Source of the DNA: Actinomadura syzygii | Lineage (GTDB): Bacteria; Actinomycetota; Actinomycetes; Streptosporangiales; Streptosporangiaceae | Assembly (NCBI RefSeq): GCF_008085905.1 | Contig: NZ_VSFF01000005.1 | Coordinates: 186,001 to 250,000 of the forward strand | Reading direction: 5' to 3' | Length of the DNA: 64,000 nucleotides | Shown: in pieces, positions 15,978-20,044 of the stretch | How positions within the stretch are numbered: position 1 is the stretch's first letter | Layout: every line of letters starts with the position of its first letter | The notes under the pieces: generated by a model | What the model saw: the letters and a program-made list of their open reading frames with translations, nothing else | Told to the model about the DNA's origin: nothing | Databases searched by the model: none | Translations under genes and position numbers: made by a program

Positions 15978-16199
15978 ATCGTGCCACCTCGGACCGCCCG
16001 AACCAGGCAGCCCATGTGCGGTGGACGGCCTGTTACGGCTCGACCGTCGCCCTGCACAGCCTCGCAGTAGACGACATCCGCGACCGCCCTCGACAGCCAG
16101 GACGCGGTGTGAACACCACCTCCCGGCCGGGTGACTCTGGCCGCCAAGGCAGTTGACGCCCACTCCATCGAACGGTTGGACAGGAAGGAAAGGTAAGCC

Positions 16200-16241
16200 G
16201 TGACCTCGCCGCACGAACCCCACCGAGCGCGCTGGAGGTAG
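16200..16241 (+). CDS. 13-codon micro-ORF, candidate leader or RiPP precursor peptide
   Basis: GTG at 16200 encodes MTSPHEPHRARWR, stop TAG at 16239. A near-ideal ribosome binding site (AAGGAAAGG, 16185-16193) sits 6 bases upstream, better than that of many real genes here. The stop falls between the GGAGG and ATG of the radical SAM gene, which begins 2 bases later, so translational coupling is possible. The peptide has His, Arg and Trp residues that a radical SAM maturase could modify. A plain coupling leader or chance is equally possible. A further 21-codon GTG frame (16131-16196) lies just upstream but has no ribosome binding site. Confidence 0.35.
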   Translation: MTSPHEPHRARWR

Positions 16242-16243
16242 AC

Positions 16244-17134
16244 ATGACCATCGCCGTCCCGGCCACGCCCGCGCCGCCGGTTCTCGATCCGGTTCGGTTC
16301 TTAGAGCTGGAGATCACCCGGCAATGCGCGCTGCGGTGCAGGCACTGCTACAGCAACTCGGGCCCGGCCGCCGGGACCGGCGAGATGACCACGGCCGACT
16401 GGATGAGCGTCATCGAGCAGGCCGCGGCCCACCCCACGATCACCACGGTGCAGTTCATCGGCGGTGAACCCACCGACCATCCCGCGTTCGTCGAACTCGC
16501 CGAATACGCACTCCTGCACGGCCTCCAGGTCGCGGTGTTCACCAACCTCCTCCACGTTGACGAACCGCTCTGGGAGCTGTTCGGCCGCGACGGCGTGAAG
16601 CTGTCGACGTCCTGGTACACCGCCGACCGCGCCCAGCACGACCAGATCACCGGGCAGCCCGGATCCTGGGACGCCACCTGGGCCAACATCGCCACCGCCC
16701 GGCGGCTCGGGCTCAAGGTGAAGGTCGGCATGGTCGAGGTCCTGGCCGACCAGGACCTCACCGGCGGCGCCGAGATGCTCACCATGCTGGGCATCACCGA
16801 CATCACCCGCGACCACGCCCGCCCGGTCGGCCGCGCCGCGCGCCGGGCAAGCCCGCCGACCGGCGGTGACCTGTGCGGCCGGTGCGGCGACGGCCGCGCC
16901 GCGATCGACACCGATGGGCGCCTCATGCCGTGTGTCCTTGGACGCGGCTTCGACGCCGGAAACGTGACCCAGACGCCGCTCGCGGAACTACTCAACGGCG
17001 AAGCGTGGCACCGGGTCCTCGGGGCGATTCCCCGCCGCACCGGAGCCGTCCACGCCTGCAACCCCGACAGCGACGGTAACGATTGCTCCCCCGCCGAGAC
17101 CGAGGCGTGCAACCCTGCCTACGACGATGACTAG
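16244..17134 (+). CDS. radical SAM/SPASM-type peptide maturase-like protein
   Basis: 296 residues. The [4Fe-4S]-SAM triad is C28-x3-C32-x2-C35 (RQCALRCRHCYSNSG), with the GGEP SAM-binding motif at 73-76. The C-terminal third carries six more cysteines (211, 214, 230, 272, 281 and 289), spaced like a SPASM domain that holds auxiliary clusters. Such enzymes usually modify ribosomal peptides or enzyme side chains. GGAGG lies 5 bases before the ATG. It overlaps the next gene by 8 bases, so it probably works with the PCMT-like methyltransferase. No large precursor gene is adjacent. Confidence 0.85.
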   Translation: MTIAVPATPAPPVLDPVRFLELEITRQCALRCRHCYSNSGPAAGTGEMTTADWMSVIEQAAAHPTITTVQFIGGEPTDHPAFVELAEYALLHGLQVAVFTNLLHVDEPLWELFGRDGVKLSTSWYTADRAQHDQITGQPGSWDATWANIATARRLGLKVKVGMVEVLADQDLTGGAEMLTMLGITDITRDHARPVGRAARRASPPTGGDLCGRCGDGRAAIDTDGRLMPCVLGRGFDAGNVTQTPLAELLNGEAWHRVLGAIPRRTGAVHACNPDSDGNDCSPAETEACNPAYDDD

Positions 17135-18269
17135 CCACGCCTGGAAAGACCACGCCGCACGCCTCGCGGACACCGCCGCGCACCGAGGGTCGCGGTGGTA
17201 CGCGCCGATCGCCACCACACCCCGGCATCGATTCGTCCCCCGCTGGTGGCAGGCCGACGGCGGCGCCTGGACCCTGCGCGACGGAACGACCGACGAACCC
17301 GCGTGGTTCCGCGCCGCCTACAGCGACCGCACACTGGTGACCCGTATCGGGACGACCCACGCCGACCACGCCCCGGAAGGCAGCCGGGCGACCGGCCGTC
17401 CGACCTCGTCGTCGACGCTGCCCGGCCTGGTCGTGGCAATGCTCCGGCACGCCCGCATCGCCGCAGACTCCCACGTGCTGGACGTCGGTACCGGGTCGGG
17501 CTACTCGGCCGGCGTCATGTCGGCATACCTCGGTGACGAACACGTCACCAGCGTCGACATCGACCCGTACCTGACACAGATCGCCGCCCAACGGCTCGCC
17601 GGGATCGACCGGCACCCCGACATCGTGACCCTCGACGCGACCGGGCCGTTGCCCGGCGCCTACGACCGGATCGTGTCGATGGTCTCCGTCCGACCGATCC
17701 CACCGAGCTGGCTCGCCGCGCTCAACCCCGGAGGACGACTGGTAACGACCGTCACCAACACAACCCTGATCATCACGGCGGACAAAACCACCGACGGCGG
17801 CGCGGTCGGGCGGGTCGAGCGCGACCGCGCCGGATTCATGGCGACCCGATCGGGCGGCGACTACCCGCCACCCGCCAGCACCTTCGACGCCGTGAGGGAG
17901 TTGGACGGCGACACCGTCACCACCGGCCGGTATCCCGTCCTCGACGTCACCGAGGCGTGGGACCTGCAATCAATGCTCGAACTCACCGCACCGGACATCC
18001 AGCACCACTTCGAGCAGCGTCCAGACGGGCAGCGAACCGCCTGGATGCTCCACGCCGACGGGTCATGGGCACGAGCGACCGGTCACCGAGGCAACCCTCC
18101 GACTGTCCACCAATCCGGCCCCCGCCGCCTCTGGGACATCCTGGAGACGATCCGCCACCGCCTCAACATGAGCGGCGACCTCCCGGTACGCGGAGCCAAG
18201 GTCACGATCAACCCCGAAGGAACGATCACCCTCCACCGAGGGCACTGGACCGCCGTGATCGCCAAATAA
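17127..18269 (+). CDS. PCMT-like SAM-dependent methyltransferase
   Basis: 380 residues. The N-terminal half resembles protein-L-isoaspartate O-methyltransferase: TPRHRFVPRWW, RPTSSSTLPGLVVAMLRHARI, then motif I HVLDVGTGSGYSAGV and TSVDIDPYLTQIAAQRL. The C-terminal 150 residues (from about 230) are an extension seen in the actinobacterial methyltransferases found near peptide-modification genes (the so-called FxLD system). Related PCMT-type enzymes in RiPP pathways methylate Asp side chains to give aspartimides. Translationally coupled to the radical SAM gene. Convergent with the DUF397 genes, no hairpin between. Confidence 0.8.
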   Translation: MTSHAWKDHAARLADTAAHRGSRWYAPIATTPRHRFVPRWWQADGGAWTLRDGTTDEPAWFRAAYSDRTLVTRIGTTHADHAPEGSRATGRPTSSSTLPGLVVAMLRHARIAADSHVLDVGTGSGYSAGVMSAYLGDEHVTSVDIDPYLTQIAAQRLAGIDRHPDIVTLDATGPLPGAYDRIVSMVSVRPIPPSWLAALNPGGRLVTTVTNTTLIITADKTTDGGAVGRVERDRAGFMATRSGGDYPPPASTFDAVRELDGDTVTTGRYPVLDVTEAWDLQSMLELTAPDIQHHFEQRPDGQRTAWMLHADGSWARATGHRGNPPTVHQSGPRRLWDILETIRHRLNMSGDLPVRGAKVTINPEGTITLHRGHWTAVIAK

Positions 18270-18311: not shown

Positions 18312-18488
18312 CTAGTGCTTGAGGTCGGAGACCAAGGCCCGGAGTGCGTCGCGAGTGATCAGGAGGCGCGGGCCGTGGGGGTCTTTGGAGTCGCGGAGGG
18401 CGATGGCCTCGGGGAGGTGGCCGACCTCCACGCAGTCACTCCCGGCCTGGGTTCCGCTGTGACTGCTCTTGCGCCACGTCGTCGTCAC
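18312..18488 (-). CDS. DUF397 protein, distal copy
   Basis: 58 residues with the DUF397 signature TTWRKSSHSG, then CVEV and ALRDSKDPHGPRL. GTG start at 18488. DUF397 proteins accompany XRE/DUF5753 regulators in actinomycetes and can antagonise them (as in Scr1-Scr2 and WhiJ-type pairs). This copy sits 67 bases after its near-identical neighbour, and remnants of the XRE gene's 3' end precede it, so it arose by tandem duplication. The upstream frame (about 18490-18520) reads like a pseudo-3' end of the XRE gene. Confidence 0.85.
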   Translation of the reverse strand: MTTTWRKSSHSGTQAGSDCVEVGHLPEAIALRDSKDPHGPRLLITRDALRALVSDLKH

Positions 18489-18555: not shown

Positions 18556-18732
18556 TTAGCGTTTCAGGTTTTTGATCAGAGTCTGGAAAGTGGCGGGGGC
18601 GATGTGGAGGTGGGGGCCGTGGGGGTCTTTGGAGTCGCGGAAGGCGATGGTCTCGGGGTGGCGGCCGACCTCCACGCACTCACTCCCGGACTGGGTTCCG
18701 CTGTGACTGCTTTTGCGCCACGTCGTCGTCAC
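18556..18732 (-). CDS. DUF397 protein, proximal copy
   Basis: 58 residues: TTTWRKSSHSGTQSGSECVEV, then TIAFRDSKDPHGPHLHIAP. GTG start at 18732, inside the 3' end of the XRE gene, which it overlaps by 53 bases in another frame. The C-terminal 20 residues diverge from the distal copy (LHIAPATFQTLIKNLKR against LLITRDALRALVSDLKH), suggesting specialisation after duplication. Confidence 0.87.
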   Translation of the reverse strand: MTTTWRKSSHSGTQSGSECVEVGRHPETIAFRDSKDPHGPHLHIAPATFQTLIKNLKR

Positions 18733-19537
18733 TGAACGCCTCCATAGCCTTCGTGATCAAGTCTTTGGACCTGTGTTCGGGGAGAGCCTTCGCGCTGATG
18801 CGCGCGAACAGGATCGCGTATTCGGCGACCTCTGTGGGAGACGATACAAGCCGACCGCCGCCGATCGACTCGGTGTAGGCGACCTCTCCGAAGTCGTCGC
18901 CGGTGACGAGCTTGAGACCGCCGTCCAAGCCTGGGTAAGCACCGGTCTCGAAGCTTTGCGGGATCACGTGGAGGACGACGTTCGGGCGTTCCGCCACCTT
19001 GAGGAGGTGGGCGAGCTGCTCTCGCATGATCTGGGGGCTGCCCACCGGCCAGCGCAAGGTGGCCTCGCTCAGCATCACCATGACGAATGCCCGGTCGAGG
19101 ACGCCCTGTCGTTCGAGTCGCTCGGTGACGTCCGGCTCGGGGTCGGGGACACCTCCGCCGGTCAGCAGTGCGCGGGCGTAGTTCTCGGTCTGGAGCACGC
19201 CGGAGATCAGGAGCGGCTCGAAGATCCGGATGATTCGGGCCCGCTGCTCGAACGTCTTGTACCGGGCGAGCCATTGCGGGTCGTGGCCGATGCTGGCGTA
19301 CCAGACCAGGATCGCGAACGCGCCGCCGGTGTCCCACGCCTTGTCGAGGAGGATCGCGCGGGTCGCGTCGAGCCGCTCGACGTTGTTCTCGATGCGCGAA
19401 ACGGTGGCCTTGCTGGCGTTGATGATTCGTCCTACGGCTTCGCCGGACAGCTCACGCTGGTTTCGGCAGAAGCGTAGGTAGTAGGCGATGAACGCCCACA
19501 AGCCTTGCTTGGGGTCGGGGGGCGGGTTGGTCGCCAT
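18680..19537 (-). CDS. XRE-family regulator with DUF5753 (Scr1/WhiJ type)
   Basis: 285 residues. The N-terminal helix-turn-helix is at about residues 20-75 (LSGEAVGRIINASKATVSRIENNVERL). The DUF5753 domain follows, with EQRARIIRIFEPLLISGVLQTENYARALL and LLKVAERPNVVLHVIPQSFETGAY. The gene overlaps the DUF397 gene downstream and is divergent from an HATPase gene, reproducing the WhiJ-AbaA-type cassette of developmental and antibiotic regulators. An 8-bp palindrome in the divergent promoter region may be its operator. Confidence 0.88.
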   Translation of the reverse strand: MATNPPPDPKQGLWAFIAYYLRFCRNQRELSGEAVGRIINASKATVSRIENNVERLDATRAILLDKAWDTGGAFAILVWYASIGHDPQWLARYKTFEQRARIIRIFEPLLISGVLQTENYARALLTGGGVPDPEPDVTERLERQGVLDRAFVMVMLSEATLRWPVGSPQIMREQLAHLLKVAERPNVVLHVIPQSFETGAYPGLDGGLKLVTGDDFGEVAYTESIGGGRLVSSPTEVAEYAILFARISAKALPEHRSKDLITKAMEAFSDDDVAQKQSQRNPVRE

Positions 19538-19585: not shown

Positions 19586-19651
19586 GCGCCAACATAACCC
19601 GAGGGTGTGACGGTGTGTCGTGGTTCACACAACTCGACGAAGGTCGGAGCG

Positions 19652-20044
19652 ATGTCCACTGCGGCGATGGCACCTGAGATTCCCAGGCTCATCCTGGAGC
19701 CCAATGAGAAAGCGGCGGGGAGGGCGCGGCGGTTTGTGGCGGCGCGGTTCGCGGAGTGGGGGATCGCGGACGACGACATCGGCCGGCTCGTGGTGAGCGA
19801 GCTGGTCACCAACGCCTATGTGCACGGGGAGGGGCGGATCGTCGTGCGCGTGTTCGTGGACAAGCACGACCGCCTCCCGGTGGTGGAGGTGTGGGACGGC
19901 GGCGCGAAATTGCCCTTCATCCCGGCGCTGGACTGCACCGCGACGTGCGGCCGGGGGCTGCTGCTGGTGGCGGAACTGGTGCGGGAGTGGGGCGTCCGTC
20001 CTCTGGACGAAGGAGGGAAGGTCACGTGGGCCAAACTTCACTGA
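19652..20044 (+). CDS. HATPase_c-like ATP-binding protein (SpoIIAB/RsbW type)
   Basis: A 130-residue serine-kinase-like domain. The N-box is DDDIGRLVVSELVTNAYVHG (residues about 37-56), the G1 region VVEVWDGGAKLP, and the G2-like CTATCGRGLLLVAELVREWGV. This solitary type is common next to XRE/DUF397 genes in actinomycetes and may bind sigma or anti-anti-sigma partners. ATG at 19652 preferred (AGGTCGGAG upstream) over 19607. It overlaps the following gene by 19 bases. Confidence 0.85.
   Translation: MSTAAMAPEIPRLILEPNEKAAGRARRFVAARFAEWGIADDDIGRLVVSELVTNAYVHGEGRIVVRVFVDKHDRLPVVEVWDGGAKLPFIPALDCTATCGRGLLLVAELVREWGVRPLDEGGKVTWAKLH

Follow-up and report, generated by a model that had tools for sequence, protein, structure and literature searches.

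The closest described systems to the locus analyzed here are 249 two-gene clusters that pair a radical S-adenosylmethionine (rSAM) enzyme with an aspartyl O-methyltransferase of the PAMT type, and for which the authors (Lee et al. 2023, PMC10787088) saw neither a precursor nor a substrate protein in the neighborhood. We studied a pair of this kind in a stretch of 64,000 nucleotides from Actinomadura syzygii (contig NZ_VSFF01000005.1, positions 186,001 to 250,000), called the window throughout. The pair very probably belongs to these orphan clusters: as in the published description, adjacent rSAM and PAMT genes come with no visible precursor. Our analysis goes beyond these clusters in proposing the C-terminal tail of the rSAM protein as the substrate and in finding sister loci with other partners. 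The features concerned are the following:

16244..17134, forward strand: radical SAM protein of 296 amino acids (aa), with Pfam Radical_SAM and SPASM matches above cut-off
17048..17131, forward strand: C-terminal CxP-repeat tail of this protein (residues 269-296), the proposed fused peptide substrate, judged from model confidence (pLDDT), the CxP repeats and co-divergence with the partner
17072..17086, forward strand: D-G-N-D-C motif of the tail (residues 277-281), in which D277 is the putative methylation site
17127..18269, forward strand: PAMT-like aspartyl O-methyltransferase of 380 aa, with a PCMT domain, a TIGR04188 match below cut-off and 1dl5 as the nearest solved chain

Other described systems share parts of this arrangement. 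The imiditides and pamtides also use a PAMT as modifying enzyme, and in their type II precursors an Asp lies between cysteines, as here; in the published sections on them they have a separate small precursor gene and no rSAM gene in the core set, whereas here the candidate substrate is part of the rSAM protein. Graspetide systems (TIGR04188) have a methyltransferase of the same family, and HATPase genes are also listed near their loci in the relevant part of PMC8939145. Unlike these, the window has no ATP-grasp family among the 12 neighboring proteins scanned with Pfam, and its methyltransferase reaches only 258 bits against a TIGR04188 cut-off of 380, which places it outside this group. The SPASM maturases (SkfB, SuiB, CteB, and PqqE) have the fold and the rSAM core in common with the window protein, but the window family has CxP repeats where the distal SPASM cysteines would be. 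Finally, in borosins the core peptide is fused to the methyltransferase that modifies it. An enzyme with its own core at the C terminus is the logic proposed here too, with an unrelated enzyme and chemistry, and with two partners that would act on the tail. The sequence features (the tail, its low pLDDT, and its co-divergence with the partner) are consistent with such a core, covalently part of its modifying enzyme.

We propose that the tail of the rSAM protein is the fused peptide substrate of a minimal two-gene peptide-modifying system, i.e., a precursor joined to its modifying enzyme, and sequence comparisons lead us to give this reading a probability of roughly 60%. The protein scores 64.7 bits for Radical_SAM (PF04055) and 26.5 bits for SPASM (cut-off 21.5). 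It has the cluster motif CX3CX2C (C28, C32, and C35) and six later cysteines (C211, C214, C230, C272, C281, and C289). The domain and the motif, the latter found in 106 of 114 intact relatives (six of the remaining eight are cut by the match start), place it in the radical SAM superfamily. Both by sequence profile and by fold, its closest solved structure is SkfB, a maturase of ribosomally synthesized and post-translationally modified peptides (RiPPs); the second by fold is the sugar-acid decarboxylase BlsE. We took PADLOC matches to viperin-like and mads_2 entries as superfamily-level matches. When the relatives were compared with the canonical SPASM cysteine pattern (CX9-15GX4C ... CX2CX5CX3C ... 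C), the proximal part was found in 113/114 and the distal CX2CX5CX3C in none, and the whole motif, present in 9/9 MftC proteins used as a control, was absent from all 114 relatives. Hence, by its distal cysteines this family is not one of canonical SPASM maturases. An earlier note on this DNA had described three cluster cysteines followed by six SPASM-like ones; all nine are present, but the last ones do not follow the SPASM pattern. It had also reported an overlapping rSAM and PCMT-like methyltransferase pair, which sequence and Pfam bear out: the genes lie on the same strand and overlap by 8 bases. From the structure model, the protein appears to consist of a folded radical-SAM domain, half a SPASM domain, and a CxP-repeat tail predicted to be unordered.

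The relatives were collected with an rSAM profile built from 14 relatives (match threshold, E of 1e-30 or better). Within the window's family, 85 of 298 genomes had a match, and within its class 33 of 394 (overlapping samples); among plasmids, 28 of 72,556 records matched, of which 22 are from Streptomyces, one from Paraburkholderia, and one from Rhizobium; a single-query scan of genome contigs gave one locus. Most partial profile matches in the family and class samples were left out when the loci were fetched. This resulted in 125 distinct rSAM rows, of which 11 were dropped as broken, frameshifted, or cut (L009, L182, L165, L090, L170, L186, L075, L091, L169, L033, and L092), leaving 114. 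The tree was built from 108 of these and the AlphaFold alignment from 106 (L184 and L192 were also excluded). Distance tests used 64 of the 65 methyltransferase loci, 26 of the 27 loci with a kinase-like partner, and 12 of the 13 ATPase loci introduced below.

A CxP tail is common to this family. All 114 intact relatives have at least two C-x-P motifs in it, and 502 of 517 tail cysteines lie in CxP, against 7 of 748 in the cores (tail cysteines were counted from the first CxP, which therefore counts by definition). In the rSAM C termini of L110 and L127 there are tandem copies of the CxP unit, as in multi-core precursors. In the AlphaFold2 model (106 sequences), the mean predicted local distance difference test score (pLDDT) is 90.4 and most residues exceed 90, but residues 269-273 and 275-296 fall below 50. 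Pooled over 19 close pairs, picked by hand and with some members shared, tails have a ratio of nonsynonymous to synonymous differences (pN/pS) of 0.31, against 0.36 in the cores. Overall, the tail is predicted to be unordered and yet seems to be kept about as strictly as the enzyme core. The cysteines could have another role. The tail occupies the place of the distal cysteines in canonical SPASM enzymes, the protein has a Pfam SPASM match, C281 is invariant, and C272 is found in at least 90% of the 106 aligned rows. The tail could thus be a degenerate distal SPASM half whose cysteines are ligands of auxiliary [4Fe-4S] clusters, the substrate being an unlinked peptide or protein. We consider this unlikely, because the number of tail cysteines varies from 2 to 12, the canonical motif is absent from all 114 relatives, the tail is not ordered in the AlphaFold model (for which the MftC control was uninformative), and tail motifs follow the partner enzyme, which would be needless for ligands.

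This last point bears on the proposal of a fused substrate. The gene directly downstream of the rSAM gene is not always a methyltransferase. Among the 114 rows it is a methyltransferase in 65, which makes the pair recurrent among relatives, a kinase-like protein in 27, an AAA ATPase together with an APH-type kinase in 13, and an APH-type kinase alone in 3; in the remaining 6 no partner was detected by the partner profiles. In the annotated methyltransferase-linked plasmid loci that we opened, the rSAM protein is labeled "radical SAM protein" and the methyltransferase "protein-L-isoaspartate(D-aspartate) O-methyltransferase" or "methyltransferase domain-containing protein." The APH-type partner has an APH match in one of the members scanned, L113 (E 6.6e-7). 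The kinase-like partner had no Pfam match in two members scanned, and its comparison with the APH-type partner gave an hhalign probability of 1.7. We call it kinase-like solely on the ground of a TD[IL][HN]xxN...VDW motif, found in 6 of 9 members, which we take to be APH-like.

Tail motifs are distributed according to these partners. D[SGT]..C is found in 47/65 methyltransferase-linked tails and in none of those linked to the kinase-like protein (0/27), to the ATPase and APH-type kinase (0/13), or to the APH-type kinase alone (0/3); one of the 6 partnerless tails has it. A looser form, D[SGT].{0,2}C, is present in 62/65 methyltransferase-linked tails. The kinase-like class has a motif of its own, PG.[PG].S.C, in 26 of its 27 tails; none of the remaining 87 tails has it. 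When the other tail residues were permuted with cysteines and CxP prolines held fixed, PG.[PG].S.C was expected in 0.2 of 27, and D[SG].DC, observed in 39/65 methyltransferase-linked tails, in 0.8 +/- 0.9. Eight methyltransferase-linked plasmid loci that were not used to define the motifs, counted by eye, had the loose form in seven and the spaced form in four, with L253 having neither. In the tree, the kinase-like class forms one clade (support 100/98), whose sister L144 has a methyltransferase and a DSNDC tail; L129, with a methyltransferase and the strings DSAC and DSEAC, and its sister L109, which has an APH-type kinase and lacks the motif, differ as the partner rule would predict. Across the 4-5 independent contrasts on well-supported branches, the motif agrees with the partner in 3.1-3.5 on average and practically never runs against it.

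The distances between sequences point in the same direction. Across the methyltransferase loci, tail distance correlates with that of the methyltransferase (r 0.49) more than with that of the rSAM core (r 0.25), the partial correlations being 0.45 and 0.14. The tail correlates at 0.47-0.49 with each third of the methyltransferase and at 0.31 with the tail-adjacent third of the rSAM protein; mere closeness on the DNA is therefore no explanation. In every one of 500 subsamples of 60%, the correlation with the methyltransferase exceeded that with the core, and values within the 46 tails with D[SGT]..C are 0.45 and 0.28. In the kinase-like class, the tail gives 0.46 with the partner and 0.05 with the rSAM core, and the ATPase class provides a weak repeat (0.91 and 0.81 with the two partners, 0.76 with the core). 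These comparisons suggest that in three partner classes the divergence of the tail follows the partner more than its own catalytic domain. Such co-divergence and class-specific motifs would also fit a tail that is a docking peptide, recruiting the partner to a substrate encoded elsewhere. To us this seems rather improbable: the motif residues would suit the chemistry of the partners (Asp-Ser/Gly where the partner is an aspartyl methyltransferase and an invariant Ser in the kinase-like class), and no other conserved small neighbor was called in 43 loci. We also know of no docking role of CxP repeats.

The methyltransferase itself resembles enzymes that act on peptides. Its PCMT domain covers residues 98-227 of 380 (56 bits), and TIGR04188, the ATP-grasp peptide maturase system methyltransferase, matches residues 10-366, which confirms the C-terminal extension that the earlier note had seen. 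PAMTs are defined, in the part of PMC10787088 that introduces them, by a PCMT domain with a C-terminal extension of more than 100 aa, as is found here. The nearest solved chain is 1dl5, the T. maritima PIMT, the one structure assigned to the PAMT clade in the same part of that paper. A WXXXGXP motif near the PAMT C terminus has been reported for three RiPP classes (in the section of PMC13001092 on them); among 67 distinct methyltransferases of our set, W...G.P occurs in 12 and W...G..P in 47, and the window protein has LNMSGDLP. PAMT target sites, so far as these two papers list them in the relevant sections, are Asp-based: TxDGC in lanthipeptides, DTAD in lasso peptides, and, for type II pamtides, an Asp flanked by CxxC motifs (PMC10787088, PMC13001092). 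These motifs look close in kind to the D-[SG]-x-D-C and D-G-C of our tails. The phage family phrog_13505 matches residues 8-342 of the methyltransferase (E 7.5e-58), and PAMT-like enzymes therefore also occur in phages. With its PCMT domain, the enzyme could also be one that repairs spontaneous isoaspartate (isoAsp) in an unordered tail, with no natural product involved. D-G and D-S are isoAsp-prone pairs, which counts for such a role. Nevertheless, we regard repair as very unlikely: the motif shows conservation and not avoidance, the partner in other lineages is a kinase-like protein, and the extension and the likeness to TIGR04188 group the enzyme with the RiPP-type PAMTs in the sense of PMC10787088.

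If the tail is a fused substrate, the system could work as follows. The rSAM enzyme would modify cysteines in the CxP tail that it carries itself, either on the same chain or on the other chain of a dimer, and since the nearest solved fold is that of the RiPP maturase SkfB, our guess is that it forms a thioether or another cross-link. The methyltransferase would methylate a conserved Asp of the tail, the first residue of D-[SGT]-x(0-2)-C, leading to an aspartimide and then to isoAsp; such formation has been published for PAMTs of other RiPPs (sections of PMC10787088 and PMC13001092). In related loci, the module of rSAM enzyme and tail would work with the kinase-like protein or with the ATPase and APH-type kinase, the tail sequence being matched to the partner. 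All of this chemistry, like the release of the tail and its biological role, is what we infer from the genes, and the tail is the most economical substrate. More broadly, one could see here a RiPP class in which an rSAM enzyme has its own (CxP)n core as an unordered C terminus and interchangeable partners act in trans, each imprinting its target motif (Asp-Ser/Gly in the case of the methyltransferase and an invariant Ser in that of the kinase-like protein). This class would be common in actinobacteria, with kin in Paraburkholderia and Rhizobium. We would give even odds on this wider view.

The earlier note had put forward a micro-open reading frame (micro-ORF) just upstream of the rSAM gene which, if real, would be one of the shortest RiPP precursors:

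16200..16241, forward strand: micro-ORF of 13 codons, judged not to be a gene
16233..16238, forward strand: TGGAGG, read directly as the Shine-Dalgarno sequence of the rSAM gene and coinciding with the Trp-Arg codons of the micro-ORF

The string is indeed there, with a GTG at 16200, a TAG stop at 16239-16241, and AAGGA upstream, but it does not behave like a gene. A comparison with relatives, as that note had proposed, showed the 13 codons to be absent from the four that lie closest on the tree (L036, L108, L107, and L147), an outcome that the note had named as speaking against a peptide. TGGAGG ends five bases ahead of the rSAM ATG. Two relatives, L115 and L116, retain gcgcgccGGAGGt...ATGACCAT but not the micro-ORF, and the GGAGG-like stretch gcgcgccGGAGG...ATGACCAT is likewise found in both. 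A short ORF preceded by a Shine-Dalgarno sequence and ending near the rSAM start, as placed by script, occurs in 8 of the 110 rows where this was counted, including the window, and the sequences in the 7 of 109 other loci are unrelated. The micro-ORF is no more than chance would give. We therefore rejected it as a precursor, since it is not conserved and its Trp-Arg codons double as a ribosome binding site, and we lend almost no credence to a precursor in this or another unlinked small ORF.

Nor did searches reveal another precursor. No conserved small neighbor appeared in the gene calls of 43 loci, which covered frames of at least 25 aa. Two profiles, A3 and A4, one for each of two tail types, were each run over 200 genomes and had 24 and 20 matches, the majority of which were rSAM C termini or rSAM fragments from the earlier profile scan; among the matches read there was no convincing stand-alone precursor, some weak short frames being left unread (G002, G136 on C239 and C163, G187, and G179; E 0.006-0.008). 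A 75-aa frame in L237 (E 3.9e-11) appears to be what is left of a tail, with the rump of a methyltransferase behind it, and L238 has a tail followed by an N-terminally shortened methyltransferase, both without rSAM; we rejected them as precursors, and they are decayed loci that keep the CxP tail without the rSAM enzyme. We also set aside L242 and L243, rSAM remnants adjoining a methyltransferase or an ATPase, and the short frames with a single or few CxP strings in L239, L240, L241, and L244, which have no rSAM, methyltransferase, or kinase match nearby and are presumed to be chance matches. The expectation that no precursor would be visible if the micro-ORF fell thus holds for these gene calls and tail-profile searches, and without a separate small precursor gene beside the PAMT-like gene the pair does not classify as an imiditide or pamtide system.

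The surroundings of the pair add some context. Next door are the following genes, which the earlier note had recognized as a duplicated DUF397 and an XRE/HATPase cassette and which Pfam confirms:

18312..18488, reverse strand: DUF397 gene, first copy (PF04149, 73.4 bits)
18556..18732, reverse strand: DUF397 gene, second copy (PF04149, 68 bits)
18680..19537, reverse strand: XRE-type regulator with DUF5753 (PF19054, 148.5 bits)
19607..20044, forward strand: histidine-kinase-like ATPase (PF13581, 41.4 bits)

The 12 neighboring proteins also include a sigma factor, a RidA-like protein, a small-molecule-type methyltransferase, and GNAT, MarR, and SDR proteins. Within 4 kb of the rSAM gene in 43 loci, XRE/DUF5753 genes were found in 12, DUF397 in 11, and HATPase genes of the window protein's cluster in 7. 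For DUF5753, the 49 copies in the window's genome lead to an expectation of about 1.7 of 43 loci, and, counted over similar lengths of DNA in these loci, 14 such genes are close by and 1 is distant. Hence, the cassette is probably linked to the rSAM pair. Three of the seven TIGR04188-type matches in the window's genome (G000) lie at most 2.5 kb from a DUF5753 regulator, and the cassette may therefore accompany PAMT-type methyltransferases generally:

C5:232241-235980: TIGR04188-type match near a DUF5753 regulator
C11:195187-197190: TIGR04188-type match near a DUF5753 regulator
C23:203154-205267: TIGR04188-type match near a DUF5753 regulator

On a Streptomyces plasmid (L256), a gene annotated as cyclophane-containing RiPP N-acetyltransferase HaaN (2410-2883) adjoins the rSAM-methyltransferase pair. 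In both L101 and L111 there is a gene directly upstream of the pair, presumably for a PHP-type phosphoesterase judging by its motif.

Several results weigh against the tail being a fused substrate. No protease or transporter family is present among the 12 neighboring proteins scanned with Pfam. The two nearly universal tail cysteines, C281 and C272, are kept as cluster ligands would be. The MftC control of the AlphaFold model, with 9 sequences only, had a mean pLDDT of 50.7, so that low values may mislead and, as this control had too few sequences, the argument from disorder rests on one model. For 8 of the 19 pairs, pN/pS is greater in the tail than in the core. The loose motif D[SGT].{0,2}C also occurs in 12 of 27 kinase-like-linked tails, near the 7.8 of the shuffles, and the APH-linked plasmid tail L251 has DGGNC, contrary to the partner rule; the statement that Asp-Gly/Ser/Thr occurs only with the methyltransferase is thus too strong, and we rejected it. 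The independent tree contrasts, 4-5 in number, are too few, and their best p of 0.125 is not significant. Partial Mantel tests tend to overstate, and because of this optimism we put weight on the repetition across partner classes. Finally, L248 (plasmid of Paraburkholderia sp. PGU19), L249 (plasmid of Rhizobium sullae), and L250 (Streptomyces plasmid) have CxP tails without any known partner enzyme by our profiles. From these partnerless loci, the CxP tail may be older than the partner enzymes.

The earlier note spoke of a possible undescribed RiPP-type system. By its enzymes the system is of the RiPP type, but the pair is in print as an orphan in the part of PMC10787088 cited above. The words "radical" and "rSAM" are absent from the main text of a 2026 review (PMC13001092), and searches of open-license papers brought up no title about an rSAM substrate that is fused to the enzyme or carried in its tail. 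As far as these searches reach, the substrate proposed here, the family of tails, and the swapping of partners are new. Should the tail prove to be the substrate, the puzzle of the 249 substrate-less rSAM-methyltransferase clusters becomes testable. There would then exist rSAM enzymes with a built-in substrate, a single scaffold being re-tooled by swapping its partner. It would also serve as a caution that fused cores escape a search for small precursor ORFs.

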